DNA of 64,000 bases from Pirellulimonas nuda (GTDB lineage Bacteria; Planctomycetota; Planctomycetia; Pirellulales; Lacipirellulaceae), in assembly GCF_007750855.1 (NCBI RefSeq), contig NZ_CP036291.1, positions 496,001 through 560,000 on the forward strand. The letters run 5' to 3'. Below the pieces are notes generated by a model. The model was given only the letters and a program-made list of their open reading frames with translations, did not search any database and was not told where the DNA came from. Of this stretch, positions 6,998-15,680 are shown one piece after another. Position numbers and translations under genes: made by a program. Position 1 is the stretch's first letter, and every line of letters begins with the position of its first letter.

Positions 6998-8125
6998 TCA
7001 CTCCGTCCCTAGCGGGTCGCCCAGCAGTTCTTCCAGCGACTCGTCCCACGCCCCGCTGGAGGTCGCCCGCAGCAGCGCCTGGTTCACCGTCTCGCGTATC
7101 GGGCTGCTGGGGGGCAGCGCGAAGGCGTAGTCTTGCCGGGCAAACACCGTCGGGAGGACCGACATCGCGTCCGCGTCGCGTCCGTGCACCTCGTAGCGCA
7201 GCAGCGGGGCGTCGTACACCACCGCGTCGCACCTGCCCGCCTGCAGGGCGTCGAGCGCCCCGGCCAGCTCGGCGTGGGTCCGGAACGCCACACGGCGTAG
7301 CCGCAGGTAGGCGGCCGAGGTAGAGCCCTCGACCGTCGTTACACGCACCCGCGACAGGTCGGCGGGGCCGTTGATCCGCGAACGCAACTGGTTGACGGTC
7401 AGCGCGGAGGTGACCGCCGCGGTGAAGCTGGCGATGATGAACAGCCCGCTGAACATCCACATCATCCCCACCATCCGCCCGGCGGTGCTCTTGGGGACCT
7501 TGTCGCCGTAGCCGACCGTGGTGAGCGTGACCGCGCTCCACCACAGCCCCGACGCGACGCCGCGGAACACGCCCCCGCCGAACTGCTCGCGGTTGACGCG
7601 CCGCTCGAAGAAGTAGACCGCCACCGCGGTCGCCAGCATCGTGGCCAGCAGCCCCCCGACGATCTTGAGGAAGGTAGGCGACATCACCGAGCCGGCAAAG
7701 CTCCACAGCCCCGGCGAGCGCTGGCTGGGTCCGATCGCGATCCCCAGCCCCGAGTTGTAGTAGGGGTGCGAGAAGTCGACTCGCTGCTCACGCTCGAAGC
7801 TGACGGTCAGGGCCGCGGCGGCCAGGTCGACCTCCCCCGCCTCGACCGCGGCCAGCATCTCTTCGAGCGTCATCGCTTGCAGGTCGAGCGTCACCGGCTC
7901 GTCGCGGACCGTTTCTAGCTCCTTACGCACCGCCTCGACCAGGTCGATGCTGATGCCACGCCACGGTCCCGGCGGCTCGCGCATGGCGAACGGCGGCGCC
8001 TGCTTGGTGGCCACACGCAGCACGCCGGTGGGCAGCGGGTCGTCGGCGACCGCCACCGCCGGCCCGATCGCCAGCAGCAGGGCAAGGGCGCGCAGCTCGG
8101 TTCGATAGTTCCTCAGACGGTGCAT
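6998..8125 (-). CDS. Prokaryotic glutamate-receptor-like K+ channel (GluR0-type)
   Basis: 375 residues combining a split periplasmic binding domain with a pore. After a signal peptide (LALLLAIGPAVAVA) the first ligand lobe runs to about residue 130 (VLRVATKQAPPFAM; REQRVDFSHPYY with the Arg expected to hold a ligand carboxylate). TM1 lies near 153-172, then the pore loop GLWWSAVTLTTVGYGDKVP (near 193-211) with a canonical TVGYGD potassium filter, TM2 near 217-240, and the second lobe (CDAVVYDAPLL near 299-309, Asp in the ligand-amine position). This is the GluR0 architecture: ligand-gated, amino-acid-like ligand. A paralogue lies just upstream on the same strand. Confidence 0.85.
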   Translation of the reverse strand: MHRLRNYRTELRALALLLAIGPAVAVADDPLPTGVLRVATKQAPPFAMREPPGPWRGISIDLVEAVRKELETVRDEPVTLDLQAMTLEEMLAAVEAGEVDLAAAALTVSFEREQRVDFSHPYYNSGLGIAIGPSQRSPGLWSFAGSVMSPTFLKIVGGLLATMLATAVAVYFFERRVNREQFGGGVFRGVASGLWWSAVTLTTVGYGDKVPKSTAGRMVGMMWMFSGLFIIASFTAAVTSALTVNQLRSRINGPADLSRVRVTTVEGSTSAAYLRLRRVAFRTHAELAGALDALQAGRCDAVVYDAPLLRYEVHGRDADAMSVLPTVFARQDYAFALPPSSPIRETVNQALLRATSSGAWDESLEELLGDPLGTE

Positions 8126-8265
8126 CGGGCGCTCGCTGCGGGTGGAGTTGGCGTGCAGTCCAACCTAGGCCCCGAAGCGATCGGGGGAAACCGCAATCCG
8201 GCGGCTGGTTGGGGGCTAGTAGCACGGGGTCCGCCACTGCGACTTCGTGGGCCCCGCCCACGGCG

Positions 8266-9384
8266 CTACTCCCCGAGGTACCGGTACACCACCTCGTTCC
8301 AGGCGTCGCTCGCCCGGAACCGCAGCAGCGCCGTGTTCAGCGGCTTGCGCAGGGGGCTTTCCGGGGGCAACGCGATCGCGTACTCCTGCGCCTGGAACGT
8401 CATCGGCAGCACGTGGATCGTCGACGCGAAGCGGTTGTTCACCAAGTAGCTCAGCAGCGGCTTGTCGTACAGGACCGCGTCGGCCTTGCCGGCGTCGACG
8501 GCCGCAAGCGCCGCGTCGGCGTCCGGCAACGCGCGGAACGGGATCCGCCGTTGCCGGAGGAACTCGGCCGCGGTGCTGGGCGCCACGGTCACCACACGCA
8601 GCCGCTTGAGGTCGCCCAGGTTGTCGATGCCCGCGCCCAATTGCTGCACCGTGAGCACCGACGTGATGACCCCCGTCAGCACCGACAGCAGCAGCAGGCT
8701 CGCGATCATCGCCAGGCCCGCCACGATCCGTCCCGCGGTGCTGTTGGGCACCACCCCTTTGTGGCCCAGCAGCAAGATGGTGGACCACCACATCCCCATC
8801 TCGATCCCCTGGCGACGCTTGCCGCCGAACAGCCCCTGGTTCACGTCGCGCTCCAACCGCCAGAAGAGCACGCCGCACAGCAGCACCAACGCGATCATCA
8901 CGCCGATGGCCACCAGCAGCCGCGTAGAGACCACGCGTTCGAGCAGGCTGACCCAGTCGCCGCGGGCGTCGACCCGCACGGCCACCCCCAGCCCCGTGGT
9001 GTAGTGGGGGTGGCAGAACTCGATCCGCGTCTGCCGGTCGGCCGTGACGCTGATCGCGGCGACCGCCGCGTCGAGCCTCCCCGCCTCGAGCCCCGTGATC
9101 AATCCATCGAGTGGCAGCTCTTGGAACTCGTACTCCAGCCCCAGCTCGTCGGCCGCGTGCCGCCACAGCTCGATGCTGATGCCGGTCCACACCCCGTCGG
9201 TGTTCTTTAGCGCAAACGGGGGGCTGTTCTTCGTGCCGACGATCAGCGGCGGGGGGGCGGCGCCCGCGCCCGCCTCGGGCGCCTGCCCACTGCACGCCCC
9301 GCCGATGGCCGCCAGCGCGAGCCAGGCCCACACACAGGCTGAGCCCGCTTTGCGTTGCAGAGGTCGAGGCTTGTAAGTAGGCAT
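8266..9384 (-). CDS. GluR0-like channel paralogue with altered filter
   Basis: 372 residues with the same order as its downstream neighbour: signal peptide with a Cys near residue 31 (possible imperfect lipobox), first binding lobe (LIVGTKNSPPFAL; TRIEFCHPHYTTGLG with the conserved Arg), TM1 near 156-175, pore loop, TM2 near 220-245 and second lobe (ADAVLYDKPLL). The pore loop reads STILLLGHKGVVPNSTAGR: the flanks match the neighbour but TVGYGD is replaced by LLGHKG and the loop is two residues shorter, so K+ selectivity is not expected. It could be a non-selective or different channel, or a ligand sensor. ATG at 9384; the 140-bp gap to the next gene suggests cotranscription. Confidence 0.8.
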   Translation of the reverse strand: MPTYKPRPLQRKAGSACVWAWLALAAIGGACSGQAPEAGAGAAPPPLIVGTKNSPPFALKNTDGVWTGISIELWRHAADELGLEYEFQELPLDGLITGLEAGRLDAAVAAISVTADRQTRIEFCHPHYTTGLGVAVRVDARGDWVSLLERVVSTRLLVAIGVMIALVLLCGVLFWRLERDVNQGLFGGKRRQGIEMGMWWSTILLLGHKGVVPNSTAGRIVAGLAMIASLLLLSVLTGVITSVLTVQQLGAGIDNLGDLKRLRVVTVAPSTAAEFLRQRRIPFRALPDADAALAAVDAGKADAVLYDKPLLSYLVNNRFASTIHVLPMTFQAQEYAIALPPESPLRKPLNTALLRFRASDAWNEVVYRYLGE

Positions 9385-9712
9385 GCTGCACGGGGGTGTT
9401 GACGCCCGGTAGCCTACCCAATCGGGGCGCCCCCAATAAGACGAGTCTCAACACCCCCCAACAACCGATCGCCCCCTAGCCGACGGGCGCCGCCCGTCGG
9501 CTATTTCCCCGGAGGGGAGCGAGCGGTGTGCTCGTGGCTATTTCTGCGTGGTATTGCCGCTGCTTTGTCCGACTTTGCTCGACGCATTTGCGACGCCGCT
9601 TCTCGAAGCTTTGTTGTCGCAAATAGCCACCTGCGCCTCGATAATACGCGGTCCGTTCCGTCCCGCCATCCGTGCCCTGAGTCGCCCCAAAGATGCACTG
9701 CCAAAGCGCCCG
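9385..9712. other. Intergenic, no gene seen
   Basis: No supportable coding region between the channel gene and the repeat beside galE. It contains the hairpin at 9478-9502 and an inverted pair ATTTGCGAC/GTCGCAAAT around 9585-9622. The upstream promoter for the channel genes should lie in 9385-9470 but I cannot place it with confidence. Confidence 0.5.
9478..9502. repeat. Perfect hairpin AGCCGACGGGC-GCC-GCCCGTCGGCT
   Basis: Eleven-base perfect stem with a three-base loop, upstream of the channel genes. No T-run follows on either strand, so it is more likely a REP-like palindrome than an intrinsic terminator. Confidence 0.6.
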
Positions 9713-9898
9713 ACTTTTGTCCCCCTGGTGTCCGATTAGACGGGTCTGGTGTCCACCGGCGGCCGCCCAATGGGGCTCCAGCGGACCAAATCGGGGGATC
9801 TGCGGCGGGCCGGGGGGCAAAACCTCGGGGTTTTCGCGGGGCGACCGGGTTTTGTCCGAAAATGGCGCCCGCCGCGGAGCGGACAAAAGGACAAAAGT
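9713..9898 (+). repeat. Intergenic element bounded by ACTTTTGTCC inverted repeats (copy A)
   Basis: 186 bp beginning ACTTTTGTCC and ending GGACAAAAGT, perfect 10-base terminal inverted repeats. Internally it carries GGGTTTTGTCCGAAAAT and a doubled GGACAAAAGGACAAAAGT end. The same blocks in the same order occur in inverse orientation at 20960-21126. It lies 19 bp beyond the galE stop codon. It has no gene, so it could be a MITE-like non-autonomous element. Confidence 0.6.
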
Positions 9899-9917
9899 GC
9901 CCCGCGGGCCGCGGACG

Positions 9918-10901
9918 CTATCCGGCGTAGCCGTTCGGGTGCGCCTTGTGCCACGCCCAGGCGCTGGCCACGGTCTCCTTCACGCTGGTGTGCTGGGCGC
10001 GCCAGCCGAGCGCGTCGAGCGCGCCCTGGGGGTTGGCGACCAGCTCCGGCGGGTCGCCGGCACGGCGTGGGCCCTCGACCGTCTTGATCTTCTTGCCGGT
10101 CACTTCTTCGCAGGCGGTGATCACCTGGCGGACGCTCGCCCCCACGCCGGTCCCCAGGTTGACGCGGATCGCCTCGCCCGGCTGCACCTTCTCGATGGCG
10201 GCCAGGTGGGCGGTAGCCAGGTCTTCGACGTGGATGTAGTCGCGGATGCAGGTGCCGTCGGGGGTGGGGTAGTCGGTCCCGAAGATCGAGATGTGGTCGC
10301 GCTTGCCGAGCGCGACGTCCAGCACCAGCGGGATGAGGTGGGTCTCGGGGTCGTGGTCCTCGCCGATCGAGCCGTCGAGCGACGCGCCCGAAGCGTTGAA
10401 GTACCGCGGCGCCGCGTAGCCGATGCCGTAGGCGGCGCGGTAGTCCTCCAGCGCCTTCTCGACTGCCAGCTTGGTGAAGCCGTAGGGGCTGATGGGGTTC
10501 TGGGGGTGGTCTTCGGGGATCGGCACCTGTTGGGGGACGCCGTAGGTGGCGCAGGTGCTGCTGAAGACGATCTTGCCCACGCCACAGGCCCGCATCGCGT
10601 CCAACAGGTTCAGCGTGCCGACCACGTTGTTGCGGTAGTACTTGGCGGGGTCGGTGACGCTCTCGCCGACGTAGCAGAGGGCGGCGAAGTGCATCACCGC
10701 CTCGATGGCGTGGTCACGCATCGCCTTCTCGATGGCGGGCTGGTCGAGCAGGTCGCCCACGATCAGCCGGGCGGGGTCGGTCGCCTCGCGGTGGCCGTAA
10801 AGGAGGTTGTCGTAGACCCACACGTCGTGCCCCTTGCTCTTGAGCAGCCTGACGCAGTGGGAGCCGACATAGCCGGCGCCGCCGGTGACGAGGATCTTCA
10901 T
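9918..10901 (-). CDS. galE: UDP-glucose 4-epimerase
   Basis: NAD-dependent interconversion of UDP-glucose and UDP-galactose, 327 residues, usual length. The Rossmann motif GGAGYVGSH is at residues 7-15; the catalytic set is visible as SSTCATYG and the YxxxK motif in SPYGFTKLA (near residue 140); nucleotide-sugar binding residues lie in RYFNASGAS and CIRDYIHVEDLA. ATG at 10901. It lies downstream of the arabinose genes on the same strand, separated by a 230-bp palindromic repeat, so cotranscription is possible but uncertain. It feeds both the Leloir pathway and cell-surface glycan synthesis. Confidence 0.95.
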   Translation of the reverse strand: MKILVTGGAGYVGSHCVRLLKSKGHDVWVYDNLLYGHREATDPARLIVGDLLDQPAIEKAMRDHAIEAVMHFAALCYVGESVTDPAKYYRNNVVGTLNLLDAMRACGVGKIVFSSTCATYGVPQQVPIPEDHPQNPISPYGFTKLAVEKALEDYRAAYGIGYAAPRYFNASGASLDGSIGEDHDPETHLIPLVLDVALGKRDHISIFGTDYPTPDGTCIRDYIHVEDLATAHLAAIEKVQPGEAIRVNLGTGVGASVRQVITACEEVTGKKIKTVEGPRRAGDPPELVANPQGALDALGWRAQHTSVKETVASAWAWHKAHPNGYAG

Positions 10902-10973
10902 GAGGCGGAGGGGCGAGAGGTTAGGGGCGAGCCGTCGCCGTCAGGCGCCGGAGTTTTTTTGTGCTCCCAAGAG

Positions 10974-11203
10974 TTTACCACAGAGGCACGGAGCGCACAG
11001 AGACGGACGGCAAGAACACTTGCCCACGAATGCGCGCGAATGGATCGAATACGGCCAAGGAGCATTGAAGGTATGCCATTCCCACCGGACCATCCGTCAC
11101 GACCCAGAGGGGGGAACCTTTTTCTGGTTCGTTCGTATTCGCGCTTATTCGTGGGCGAACTTTTCTCCGTCCGTCTCCGCGTTCTCCGTGACTCCGTGGT
11201 GAA
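10974..11203. repeat. Long imperfect inverted repeat (C1)
   Basis: The left arm starts ACCACAGAGGCACGGAG and runs through GAGACGGACGG to GCCCACGAATGCGCGCGAAT. The right arm carries the complements (ATTCGTGGGC, CCGTCCGTCTC, CTCCGTGGT), giving arms of about 65-70 bases around a loop of about 90. It fills the galE-symporter gap. A close relative, C2, is at 13051-13349. No open frame of quality. Confidence 0.7.
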
Positions 11204-11213
11204 CTACTTTTCG

Positions 11214-13007
11214 CTAACCCTGGAAGTACAGGTACGCCGCCACGATCAAAACCAGCACCAGCCCAGAGGTCGCCACGTCGAGTGCCGACCAGCTCGAGCG
11301 GGTCTGGGCCTTGTCTTCGTCGCTGATGGCGCCGTAGGTGAGGCCGCTGATGCGTTGGTAGTCGGGCGCCCGGGTGGCGTAGCTCACCAGGATCATCGCC
11401 AGCGCGCTGGCGATGGTGATCAGCAGGCTGAAATACTGGAAGTAGATCTTGTTAACGATCCACAGGAACGATTCTTCCGGGTACGAGAAGTCCTTGTAGA
11501 CCTTCAGCGGCGTGTCGACCGCCAGGCGGAAGATGCCCAGCGCAAAGCCGACCAGCAGCGCCGCCAGGCACCCCGCGGCGTTGAGTCGCTTCCAGGCGAT
11601 GCCGAAGAAGAAAACGACGAAGATGGGGGGCGCCAAGTAGCCCTGCACGCTCTGCAGGTACTCGTACAGCCCGCTGGAGCCCTTGATGACGGGGATCCAC
11701 GCCATGCCGATGAGCACCATGGCGAAGGTAGCGATGCGGCCGACCTGCACCAAGCGTTTCTCGGAAGCCGCCGGGGCGAACTTCTGGTAGAGGTCGATCG
11801 TGAAGAGCGTGCTGCACGCGTTGAACACGCCGGCGAGCGAGCTCATCAACGCACTGAGCAGCCCGGCGACCACGATGCCGCGGATGCCGGTGGGCAGCAC
11901 GTTCTTGACCATCATCGGGAAGGCTTTGCCGGAGTCGGCGATGTCCTGTCCGTCCTCGGTCAGCATCAGGCCGAAGTCGAGGCCGCCCGCCTCCCCCGCT
12001 TGGCTCTTGATGATGAGCCCCCAGCAGATCATGCCGGGCACGATAAAGATGAACACGGGCAGCAGCTTGAGCAGCGCGGCGAAGATGCTGCCGCGGCGGG
12101 CCTGGGTCTCGTTCTCGGCGCCCAGGGCGCGCTGCACGATGTACTGGTCGGTGCACCAGTACCACAGCCCGATGATCGGGGCGCAGAACAGCATCCCCAG
12201 CCAAGGGAAGTAGCCGTTGAAGTACCACGCCTGGCGGACCAGCTTGCCGGAGGAGTCGACCTCCTCCACGGGCGCCCACTCGAACGGCAGCGCCTTGCCG
12301 TCGACCACCGCGGTCAGCGGCTTCCAGAGGTTGAACTTGTCGGCGCCGATGGTCTCTTTCAGCTCGCCCCAGCCGCCGATGGCTTCGAGGCCGTAGTAGG
12401 TGACCAGCGCGGAGCCGACGATCAGCACCACGGTTTGCAGCGTCTCGGTGTAGGCGACCGCGCGGAAGCCGCCCAGCACGGTGTAGGCGCCGGTCATCGC
12501 CAGTACCAGCAGCGAGCCGATCCAGAAGCTGTCGAGCTGCCCGAGCCGCATGTCGGGCAGCAGCACAGAAAACACGATGCCGCCGGCGTAGATGCCCACC
12601 GCGATCTTGGTGAGCACGTAGGCCAGCAGCGAGATCACGCTGAGCGTGTAGCGCGAGGCGGGAGAGAACCGCTTCTCCAAGAACTCCGGCATCGTGAACA
12701 CCCGGCTGCGGGCGTAGAACGGCACCAGGACCCACGCCAGCACCAGCAGGCACCAGGCGTGCAGCTCGTAGTGGGCCATGGCGACGCCGTCGGTGGCGCC
12801 CGACCCGGCGAGCCCGACCAGGTGCTCCGAGCCGATATTCGAGGCGAAGATCGACGCCCCCACGACGAACCACCCCAGGCTGTGCCCGGCGAGGAAGTAG
12901 TCGTCGGAGGTGTTCTTGCTCTTACGGATCACCCAGAGCGCCAGCAGCGCAATGAGGGCGAAGTACCCGCCGATAACGATCCAGTCGAGGGTTTCGAGGG
13001 CGCCCAT
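11214..13007 (-). CDS. Sodium:solute symporter (SSS family)
   Basis: Na+-coupled sugar importer of 597 residues with about 14 membrane helices. Family marks are visible: DDYFLAGHSLGWFVVGASIFASNIGSEH at the N-terminus, GGFRAVAYTETLQT near residues 178-192, YWCTDQYIVQRAL near 285 and SSLAGVFNACSTLFTIDLYQ near 395. It resembles SGLT-type transporters. It is the last gene of an araB-araD-araA series on the minus strand, so L-arabinose (or a related pentose or galactose) is the likely substrate by context. A 345-bp gap with repeat C2 separates it from araA, so it may have its own promoter. Confidence 0.9.
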   Translation of the reverse strand: MGALETLDWIVIGGYFALIALLALWVIRKSKNTSDDYFLAGHSLGWFVVGASIFASNIGSEHLVGLAGSGATDGVAMAHYELHAWCLLVLAWVLVPFYARSRVFTMPEFLEKRFSPASRYTLSVISLLAYVLTKIAVGIYAGGIVFSVLLPDMRLGQLDSFWIGSLLVLAMTGAYTVLGGFRAVAYTETLQTVVLIVGSALVTYYGLEAIGGWGELKETIGADKFNLWKPLTAVVDGKALPFEWAPVEEVDSSGKLVRQAWYFNGYFPWLGMLFCAPIIGLWYWCTDQYIVQRALGAENETQARRGSIFAALLKLLPVFIFIVPGMICWGLIIKSQAGEAGGLDFGLMLTEDGQDIADSGKAFPMMVKNVLPTGIRGIVVAGLLSALMSSLAGVFNACSTLFTIDLYQKFAPAASEKRLVQVGRIATFAMVLIGMAWIPVIKGSSGLYEYLQSVQGYLAPPIFVVFFFGIAWKRLNAAGCLAALLVGFALGIFRLAVDTPLKVYKDFSYPEESFLWIVNKIYFQYFSLLITIASALAMILVSYATRAPDYQRISGLTYGAISDEDKAQTRSSWSALDVATSGLVLVLIVAAYLYFQG

Positions 13008-13050
13008 AGCGTGATTAATTCTGGAAGAGAGATGGAAAGGAAAAGCCGAA

Positions 13051-13349
13051 GTTCACCACAGTGTCACCGAGGGCACGGAGACGGGAAGAGACGGACGGAA
13101 AGTTTGCCCACGAATGCGCGCGAATACGGACGAACTACGAAGGATGGATCAGGTATGGCGGTCCATGGCCACGAGCGTACGCCGGTTTGTTCCTTGCTAT
13201 GCAATCACGGCTCAACGCGTAAGGGAGGGAGCGGCGGGGTTGCCGCGCCTGCCTCGCTTACGCGACGGGTTTCCACTGATATTCATTCGCGTGTATTCGT
13301 GGGCAACGTCTCTTTTCTTCTCTGTGCCCTCAGTGACTCTGTGGTTAAC
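13051..13349. repeat. Long imperfect inverted repeat (C2)
   Basis: Left arm TTCACCACAGTGTCACCGAG through AGACGGACGG to GCCCACGAATGCGCGCGAAT; right arm ATTCGCGTGTATTCGTGGGC through TCTGTGCCCTCAGTGACTCT to GTGGTTAAC. Same family as C1, with a longer loop (about 140 bases). It occupies nearly all of the araA-symporter gap and ends 4 bases from the araA stop. Confidence 0.7.
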
Positions 13350-13352
13350 AAT

Positions 13353-14861
13353 TCACGATCGCCTGTAGGCGCCCACCGCGTCGCTCATCCGCAGCCTGTG
13401 CTTGAACTCGCGCAGATTGGTTTGACCATCGATCACCAGCAACTCGACGCCAAGCATACTCGCAAAGTCTTCGTAGTGCTCGGTGGTAAGCGCCTGGCTG
13501 AAGACCGGGTGGTGCGAACCGCCCGCGTAGATCCACGCCGCCGCGGCGGTCGCCAGGTCGGGGGCCGGCTTCCACACGGCGCGGGCGACCGGCAGCTTGG
13601 GCAGGGGCTGGGGCGGGGCGATCACGTCGACCTCGTTCAGCACCAGGCGGAAGCGGTCTCCCAAGTCAACGATGGTGGCGTTCACGGCGGCGCCGGGCGG
13701 GGCGTCGAACACCAGCCGCACGGGGTCTTCCTTGCCGCCGATCCCCAACGGGTGGACCTCACAGCTCGGCCTGCCGGCGGCGATCGACGGGCAGATCTCC
13801 AGCATGTGCGAGCCGAGCACCAGGGCGTCGCCGCTAGCGGGGAGGTGGTAGGTGTAGTCTTCCATGAAAGTCGTTCCCCCGGGCAGGCCGGCCGCCATGA
13901 CCTTCGAGGCCCGAACCATTGCGGCCGCCTTCCAGTCCCCCTCGGCGCCGAAGCCGTAGCCGTCGGCCATCAGCCGCTGCGTGGCGATGCCGGGGAGCTG
14001 CTTGAGGCCGTAGAGATTCTCGAACGTGTCGGTGTAGCCGACGAAGCCCCCCTCTTCCAGGAACGCCCGCAGACCCAGCTCTATGCGGGCGGCGTCGCGG
14101 AGCGACTGGCGGCGGGCGCCCCCGGAGCGGAGCTGTTCGTCCATGGCGTACGTTTCTTCGTAAACCGCGCAAAGCCGGTCAACGTCCGAGTCGCTCGCCG
14201 CCTCGAGGTGCTTCGCCACATCGCCCAGGCCGTAGCCGTTCACCGACACGCCGAGCGTGATCTGCGCAGCGACCTTGTCTCCTTCGGTGACGGCCACTTC
14301 GCGCATGTTGTCGCCGATGCGGGCGATCTTTGCGCGATCGAGGTCGTGCCGGGCCGCGGCGGCGCGGCACCAGACGCCGAGCGAGCGCTGGGCGGCGTCG
14401 TCCTGCCAGTGGCCGACCACGATCTTGCGGTCGAGCCTCAGCCGGGCGCCGATGAACCCAAACTCGCGTCCGCCGTGGGCGGACTGGTTGAGATTCATAA
14501 AATCCATGTCGATCGTGGGCCACGGGATCTCGCGGCCGAACTGCGTGTGCAGGTGCGCCAGCGGCTTCTGCAGGCGGGTGAGGCCCGCGATCCACATCTT
14601 GGCGGGGCTGAACGTGTGCATCCACGCGACCAGGCCGATGCAGTTGGGCGTGCTGTTGGCCTCAAGCACAACATCTCGAATCGCGTCGGGGCCGATCAGC
14701 ACCGGCTTGAACACCACGCGCACCGGGATGTGCCGCGAGGCCTCGAGCTCTTTCGCGACTTGCTGCGAATGCTCGGCCACCTGCTTGAGGGTTTCGGGGC
14801 CGTACAGGTGCTGGCTGCCAGTGATGAACCAGACTTCAAGCTGCGAGAGATCGGGGAGCAT
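13353..14861 (-). CDS. araA: L-arabinose isomerase
   Basis: Cytoplasmic, Mn-dependent conversion of L-arabinose to L-ribulose; 502 residues, as E. coli AraA (500). The N-terminal [12 protein letters not shown] is diagnostic. The metal and catalytic residues are found in GFGAEGDWK and [10 protein letters not shown] (two Glu), SHMLEICPS (Glu with His) and GGSHHPVFS (His). ATG at 14861. It follows araB and araD on the same strand with a 105-bp gap, and the pathway order araA, araB, araD gives D-xylulose 5-phosphate. Confidence 0.97.
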
Positions 14862-14966
14862 GTGGTGATATGGTCGAGGTGTGAGGATGGATGGTCGCGG
14901 TTGACGCCCACGCGCCGGGCGGTAGGAGGTAGAGCAGGCGGGTCGGCTTCGCGCCGCCGCCCTCTT

Positions 14967-15680
14967 CTAGCCCCCATCATCTCGCGAAGCTCCTTGGCCG
15001 TAATAGGCATTCGGGCCGTGTTTTCGGAAATAGTGTTTGTCCAGCAAGAACTGATCAACCGGAGGCTGATTGGGGTTGAGCGCCAGCGTCCCCAGGGCCA
15101 TATCGGCGACCGCTTCCAGCGCAACGGCGTTCTTGACCGAGTCGGCCGCGTCCTTCCCCCAAGCGAAAGGGGCGTGGCTGGCGACCAAGACGCCGGGGAC
15201 CGCGATCGGGTCGATGTCCTTAAAACGCTCGATGATCACGCGGCCGGTGTTCACCTCGTAGGCCTCTTCGATCTCTTGTTCGGTGAGCGCACGTGCACAG
15301 GGGATAGAGCCGTAAAAGTGGTCGGCGTGGGTGGTGCCGAAGCAGGGGATTTCTCGACGGGCTTGGGCGAACGTGGTCGCACGTGTGCTGTGGGTATGGG
15401 TAATGCCGCCAACCCTTTCGAAGGCCCGGTACAGCAGCCGGTGGGTCGGCGTGTCGGACGAGGGATTGAGATCGCCCTCGGCAACGTCGCCCGACTCCAT
15501 GCTGACCACCACCATGTGCTCAGCGCGCATCGCGTTGTATGCAACCCCGCTGGGCTTGATGACCAAGTACGCCCGATCCTCAGAAAGTCCGCTGACGTTT
15601 CCCCAGGTCAGCGTCACGAGCCCGTGCGCGACGAGGTCGAGGTTGGCTTGGCAGACTTGTTGCTTGAGTTCTTCTAGCAT
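14967..15680 (-). CDS. araD: L-ribulose-5-phosphate 4-epimerase
   Basis: Zn-dependent class II aldolase-fold epimerase of 237 residues that converts L-ribulose 5-phosphate to D-xylulose 5-phosphate. Visible marks: TWGNVSGLSEDR, VIKPSGVAY, the Zn ligands in ITHTHSTRATTFA, CFGTTHADHFYG, and SHAPFAWG; the C-terminal HYFRKHGPNAYYGQ is typical of AraD. The ATG at 15680 aligns with the family start (MLEELKQQV); the frame is open upstream into araB but without support. araB ends 68 bp upstream, consistent with one transcript. Confidence 0.96.
   Translation of the reverse strand: MLEELKQQVCQANLDLVAHGLVTLTWGNVSGLSEDRAYLVIKPSGVAYNAMRAEHMVVVSMESGDVAEGDLNPSSDTPTHRLLYRAFERVGGITHTHSTRATTFAQARREIPCFGTTHADHFYGSIPCARALTEQEIEEAYEVNTGRVIIERFKDIDPIAVPGVLVASHAPFAWGKDAADSVKNAVALEAVADMALGTLALNPNQPPVDQFLLDKHYFRKHGPNAYYGQGASRDDGG

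Follow-up and report, generated by a model that had tools for sequence, protein, structure and literature searches.

Two groups of bacterial glutamate receptors have been described. According to the available text of Ger 2010 (PMC2950845), 22 prokaryotic receptors divide into 12 that have a K+ filter and 10 that lack one; a bacterial glutamate receptor that lacks the K+ filter is thus not new, Group 2 having been known since that work. Group 1 receptors carry the filter TXVGYG, while Group 2 is defined in the same excerpt by the plan of GluR0 combined with a P region that is not of the K+ type. GluR0 of Synechocystis (Slr1257), a Group 1 receptor, holds its binding lobes outside the membrane and acts in cell-volume control during KCl upshock, as described in the accessible part of PMC13099474. 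A search of the open-access literature found no paper on lysine-filter or heteromeric bacterial glutamate receptors, which is weak evidence of absence, as subscription journals were mostly uncovered.

A tandem pair of glutamate-receptor-like genes

The window analysed here is a stretch of 64,000 nucleotides from Pirellulimonas nuda, whose genome is a single contig of 6.6 Mb. PF07596, a family regarded as a hallmark of Planctomycetes, matches 91 times in this genome and in none of 14 control genomes. On its reverse strand, a gene at 8266-9384 was identified from its open reading frame and translation to encode a protein of 372 residues with LLLGHKG at the filter position (referred to as the GHK protein), an assignment supported by Pfam and by the 22-member clade described below. 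The frame is intact, with zero internal stops. A hydrophobic stretch near the N-terminus (residues 13-35; 9280-9348, reverse strand, as are all following features of the pair), located by hydropathy scan, is a probable signal peptide. The S1 ligand-binding lobe with Arg117 (residues 47-138; 8971-9246) was placed by alignment to the structure 2PYY and by Pfam SBP_bac_3, and the S2 lobe with Asp307 (residues 253-371; 8272-8628) by alignment to 2PYY. Between the lobes, hydropathy and alignment (for M1, to the K+-type paralogue) located the transmembrane helix regions M1 (residues 144-181; 8842-8955) and M3 (residues 214-253; 8626-8745), and translation together with the paralogue alignment located the pore loop WWSTILLLGHKGVVPNSTAGR (residues 199-219; 8728-8790), in which LLLGHKG occupies residues 204-210 (8755-8775).

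The second gene of the tandem (6998-8125), identified from its open reading frame and Pfam, encodes a paralogue of 375 residues in which the K+-channel signature TTVGYGD can be read (7502-7522), and the two proteins are 42% identical. They are separated by an intergenic gap of 140 nt (8126-8265). A scan for terminator-like sites returned 3 sites against 1.4 expected, none of them listed inside this gap, and a promoter scan returned 0 sites. When the window's genome was searched with the GHK protein, no further homologue was found besides the tandem pair.

Pfam, alignment and hydropathy showed both proteins to consist of a solute-binding domain split around M1, pore loop and M3. In the GHK protein, SBP_bac_3 matched at 5.8e-25, split over residues 47-371, and Lig_chan at 4.3e-8 over residues 163-260; the cut-offs of both models were passed by both proteins of the pair. 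The K+-channel model Ion_trans_2 passed for the paralogue only (3.2e-14 versus 0.58 for the GHK protein). Compared with the PDB, the GHK clade gave its strongest match (1.4e-44) to the binding domain of NpGluR0 (2PYY), a receptor that we take to belong to Group 2; the ligand-holding Arg117 of S1 and Asp307 of S2 align with 2PYY and are kept in 22/22 GHK proteins. Type-3 solute-binding halves thus flank M1, pore loop and M3 as in GluR0, in agreement with the sequence-only reading of this gene as glutamate-receptor-like.

The likeness to GluR0 and Group 1 extends to the signal peptide (predicted in the GHK protein), the order S1-M1-P-M3-S2 and the binding Arg and Asp. Unlike Group 1, the GHK protein has no TXVGYG filter (LLLGHKG, Ion_trans_2 E 0.58), its loop is two residues shorter, and a lysine stands at the filter with no acid. 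With the GluR0 plan and a P region that is not of the K+ type, it falls under Group 2 as defined in the excerpt of PMC2950845, and the TVGYGD partner is of the Group 1 (GluR0) kind. An AlphaFold model built from the window proteins only (two sequences) reached a mean pLDDT of 41.8, too poor for the pore to be read. On the opposite strand of the window, an open frame of 1994 codons (9693-15677, forward strand) was observed antisense to several genes; it is probably a chance product of high G+C and not a gene.

Conservation and descent of the GHK loop

Alignment of the tandem proteins places the GHK loop WWSTILLLGHKGVVPNSTAGR against the K+-type loop WWSAVTLTTVGYGDKVPKSTAGR in a common frame, WWS-TILLLGHKGVVPN-STAGR in the GHK protein and WWS-AVTLTTVGYGDKVPK-STAGR in the paralogue. 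The spacing from WWS to STAGR is 13 residues in the former and 15 in the latter, so that the earlier description of a loop two residues shorter between the same flanks was borne out. The replacement of VGYGD by LGHKG that it had also reported is real, the motif being better written as LLLGHKG.

Genome sets of 79, 396, 392, 297, 199 and 150 members (the sets overlap) were searched with the GHK protein or an alignment, and 22 GHK proteins were recovered, one per genome. They come from four families, namely the window's own (2), f15 (14), f21 (5) and f77 (1), of which f77 lies outside the window's class. The pattern [LF]G[HN]K[GS] was found together with the shortened loop in all 22 (LGHKG 16, LGNKG 3, LGNKS 2, FGHKG 1), which answers the question, raised by the sequence-only reading, of whether LGHKG is conserved among homologues of one clade. 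Leu205, Gly207, Lys209 and Pro213 are invariant in 22/22; position 208 holds either His (17) or Asn (5), and position 210 either Gly (20) or Ser (2). The spacing from WW to GR is 17 residues in 22/22 GHK proteins versus 19 in 63/65 K+-type rows; the remaining 2 did not fit the search pattern. No acidic residue was found in the loop of any of the 22, while at least one is present in 65/65 K+-type (TVGYGD) rows, as also in 18/18 TGGC-type rows and 11/17 other rows. Arginines in the linker between M1 and the P region, at 190 in 21/22 and at 191 in 20/22, typify the clade. Mean entropy over residues 204-211 is 0.48 bits versus 0.90 for S1, 0.92 for M3, 1.06 for S2 and 1.39 for M1, and the pore loop is among the best-conserved stretches of the protein.

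This conservation bears on the possibility of a pore-dead receptor, that is, a protein that binds its amino acid and signals or stabilises a partner without conduction or a role in the filter. The GYG triplet and the conserved acid are lost and the binding residues are intact in 22/22, as would be expected of such a receptor. However, a dead pore should drift and the loop has the lowest entropy of the regions compared, and no cytoplasmic output domain was seen by translation and Pfam within the 372 residues of the GHK protein, which together make this possibility quite unlikely.

Class labels were based on motifs; the motif is called a clade marker on the strength of trees computed without the filter columns. 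After removal of 41 long-branched or redundant rows, a careful 81-row tree united the GHK proteins in one clade with support of 100/99, recovered in 200/200 bootstrap trees; a quick tree (122 rows) and a second careful one (68 rows selected from 124) recovered the clade too. Also left out were 14 matches with fewer than 270 aligned residues and identical cores. Being common to 22/22 members of a clade found by homology and delimited without the filter columns, the motif likeness exceeds chance. The usual TVGYGD partners formed a separate clade of 26 rows (100/100) in the 81-row tree, where the K+-type rows closest to the GHK clade were four from other families (88/84). As the GHK and partner clades are not sister, the tandem is not a fresh duplication, and by these sequence comparisons the two genes are old separate lineages and not recent copies.

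The dN/dS values of GHK genes (NG86) were found to range from 0.068 to 0.316 over seven partly overlapping pairs, three of which share rows and some of which have dS near saturation; the matching K+-type pairs gave a similar 0.092-0.333. The pair formed by the window and G006 showed the lowest constraint in both sets. The GHK genes are under long-term purifying selection, and no internal stops were reported in the window gene or in nine further GHK matches.

A shorter loop in a gene that adjoins its paralogue could also denote a degenerating duplicate of the K+-type gene, which the sequence-only reading would have expected to show random filter sequences and frame decay among homologues. Instead, 22 homologues carry the same motif in one clade, dN/dS is 0.07-0.32, stops are absent from the window gene and the nine further matches, and the two genes belong to old separate lineages. 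Degeneration is accordingly exceedingly improbable for the window gene and was rejected for the clade, given the shared motif, the single clade, purifying selection and the intact window frame.

Beyond the genome sets, a scan of viral contigs found no relative of the GHK protein, matches in phage records covered at most 30% of the query, and a scan of genome contigs matched one plain binding protein.

Other non-K+ filters in bacteria and plants

The proposal that the K+ filter was lost here independently was upheld in part. One protein of the Group 2 type for comparison is a cyanobacterial protein of a Kovacikia minuta plasmid (L224), whose loop of 17 residues, WWTILALIGQDVTMPRGSLGK, has the length of the GHK loop but retains an Asp in IGQD, where the GHK loop has Lys and no acid. 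A single clade of GHK proteins and L224 was rejected at p-AU 7e-5, a test in which cyanobacteria were represented by one long-branched row and which included none of Ger 2010's own sequences. The GHK lineage thus lost the K+ filter independently of the single cyanobacterial Group 2 receptor compared, but this loss is not unique, the filter being missing in several other bacterial lineages as well. The two-residue deletion was likewise rejected as a trait unique to GHK proteins, since the Kovacikia protein also has it. The loop of L224, encoded on plasmid pA, reads ...LIGQDVTMPRGSLGK, and its binding domain lies near 2PYY, with strong matches to AMPA receptors.

A second non-K+ lineage was observed in family f7 (L007, L008, L045-L055, L111, L113, L122, L123, L125), in which TGGCDDKH or TGGCENK occupies a loop of K+-type length; 54 genomes of this family matched, and filters were read from 17 TGGC-type sequences only. 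The position of the S2 Asp reads GEN rather than YD in two f7 sequences inspected. Receptor-like proteins of family f53 (L117, L118, L119, L120, L124) lack the WW motif and read GSLDRK, GEIPSHK and GQLNQ in the P region, and two copies adjoin in L117 and in L119. Plasmid pRt932 of Rhizobium tumorigenes (L178) carries a homologue with 40% identity, the filter TQASTGHRGPK and a loop of K+-type length, its gene adjoining those for a formylglycine-generating enzyme and a HAD hydrolase. Other proteobacterial plasmids (L179, L180-L185, L225) encode proteins of the receptor-channel plan with the non-K+ loops TKGPFNYFEFK and TSGKSP..KNLF, annotated, where annotation is given, as 'transporter substrate-binding domain-containing protein'; the pore of the Vibrio and Photobacterium plasmid homologues reads TKGPFNYFEFK, unlike that of the GHK protein.

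Among eukaryotic receptors, the plant receptor AtGLR3.4 (7LZH) has the same 17 residues from W[WF] to GR (a GluA2 construct has 18), and its FFSHR resembles LLGHK of the GHK protein, although in an ungapped alignment the two motifs are shifted by one position. When the PDB was searched with the GHK M1-P-M3 profile, GLR3.4 shared first place with the K+ channel MlotiK1, both at 1.3e-6. Plant GLRs have in addition an amino-terminal domain and an M4 helix, and the GHK protein, at 372 residues, is without a fourth hydrophobic stretch. A special kinship with plant GLRs was not supported, as K+-type M1-P-M3 profiles used as controls score GLR3.4 at 37.3 and 42.4 bits, equal to or higher than the 37.5 bits of the GHK profile; on these scores the likeness is probably convergence.

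A GHK homotetramer might be an amino-acid-gated channel of its own, anion-permeable or poorly selective, with the TVGYGD neighbour as a separate K+ channel under shared expression; between them, the two could transport K+ and an anion. The M1, pore-loop and M3 regions are complete and constrained, and a homotetrameric loop with four lysines and zero acids would favour anions over cations. GLR3.4 offers a parallel in its equal loop length and comparable hydrophobic-hydrophobic-small-His-basic stretch: in the portion of PMC11479355 available, Arg666 is the narrowest, positive point of the modelled pore and is said to make anion permeation plausible. That claim rests on a model, however, and the control profiles weaken the parallel. 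Such a self-sufficient channel is regarded as somewhat unlikely.

Gene pairing and a candidate modifier subunit

A TVGYGD gene was found to be the same-strand neighbour of the GHK gene in 18 of the 22 genomes, the GHK gene being first in 16 pairs and the K+-type gene in 2 (G919, G1084), and in 9 of the 18 pairs the matched regions overlap or lie at most 4 nt apart. The partners in G919 and G1084 group with an f116 TVGYGD protein (98/86) and not with the usual partners; this different lineage and the reversed order indicate that the two genes came to be paired, or were paired anew, on more than one occasion. Both pair genes of G546 (f21) nest among f15 sequences with support of 100/98 in each half of the tree, as if they had been transferred together.

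A TVGYGD gene is present somewhere in 21 of the 22 genomes. In G1024, an assembly of 200 contigs that is 99% complete, a GHK gene is present but a TVGYGD homologue was not found at E<=1e-20. G358 and G612 carry the two genes on separate contigs, far from the contig ends. In G1055 the start of the GHK gene is close to the end of its contig, and the TVGYGD gene, which contains an in-frame TGA, is on a different one. The K+-type gene often occurs without a GHK gene: among 199 genomes of one family, 22 of which matched at E<=1e-60, 13 have both genes, 8 the K+-type only and 1 the GHK only. When GHK proteins were compared by tblastn with ten loci (nine K+-only loci, drawn from seven genomes, plus that of G1024, which is GHK-only), one place was matched in each, and no GHK remnant was found beside the nine K+-only genes.

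The habitual pairing at 18 of 22 loci makes a heteromeric channel likelier than either option of the sequence-only reading, a pore of other selectivity or a pore-dead sensor, taken alone. We therefore favour, with a probability of roughly 45%, the reading that the GHK protein serves as the modifier subunit in a bacterial channel gated by amino acids, where it co-assembles with the K+-type subunit. Both proteins would reside in the inner membrane with their binding lobes outside, following GluR0 topology, and an extracytoplasmic amino acid would close the lobes and gate the channel. In a putative heterotetramer of GHK and TVGYGD subunits, the GHK lysine, the missing acid and the missing GYG carbonyls may change, reduce or switch the K+ current. 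This control would resemble that exerted by electrically silent Kv subunits (KvS) or by arginine-edited AMPA-receptor subunits, the effect of the Q-to-R change on AMPA and kainate receptors being covered in the consulted part of PMC11479355. The likeness to KvS, an unrelated subfamily with the opposite membrane orientation, lies in the proposed accessory role beside a conducting partner and is an analogy only; KvS co-assembly has been demonstrated (excerpt of PMC11335225), while for the GHK protein gene pairing is what is known.

The GluR0 plan, the conserved Arg and Asp, the short basic acid-free loop, purifying selection and the same-strand pairing speak for a modifier subunit. Against it stand the lone GHK gene of G1024 and the non-adjacent genes of G358, G612 and G1055. 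The first three of these genomes would suit a channel formed by GHK subunits alone, on which view the pairing seen in 18 of 22 would be no more than co-regulation. It also counts against a modifier that neighbours from one gene family may be retained although their products never form heteromers. A stronger proposal, in which the heteromer of K+-filter and lysine-filter subunits is obligate and would be a prokaryotic, independent counterpart of the subunit-controlled selectivity of animal receptors, with an acid-free positive filter convergent on that of plant GLRs that might conduct anions or close the K+ pore, is doubtful.

The system addresses how glutamate receptors left K+ selectivity and when subunit mixing began, and a bacterial pair of a K+-type and a lysine-filter subunit, each of about 370 residues, would allow both questions to be tested directly. 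K+-uptake-deficient E. coli, which served as the GluR0 assay in the accessible part of PMC13099474, is a ready assay for the K+-type half. For plant GLRs, whose selectivity the available text of PMC11479355 describes as unsettled, the GHK protein also offers a counterpart from bacteria with which their positively charged filter position can be compared.

The likely job of the proposed channel would be ionic or osmotic homeostasis, because CorA, MscS-type and MgtE-like genes occur at related loci and GluR0 has its role in KCl upshock. Among the 18 paired loci, for which the fetched flanks varied in length, CorA was found at 10 (beside the K+-type gene), a PP2C-cNMP protein at 7, an MscS-type channel at 7 and an MgtE-like gene at 4. 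The window's own locus is without CorA, PP2C-cNMP, MscS-type and MgtE-like genes, and CorA also adjoins 3 of 11 TVGYGD genes that have no GHK neighbour; the ion-homeostasis context thus belongs at least partly to the K+-type gene. At four loci (L194, L195, L204, L209), genes for an MscS-type channel, a PP2C-cNMP phosphatase, the GHK protein, the K+-type protein, CorA and an MgtE-like protein were observed as a cluster, a possible ion-homeostasis operon.
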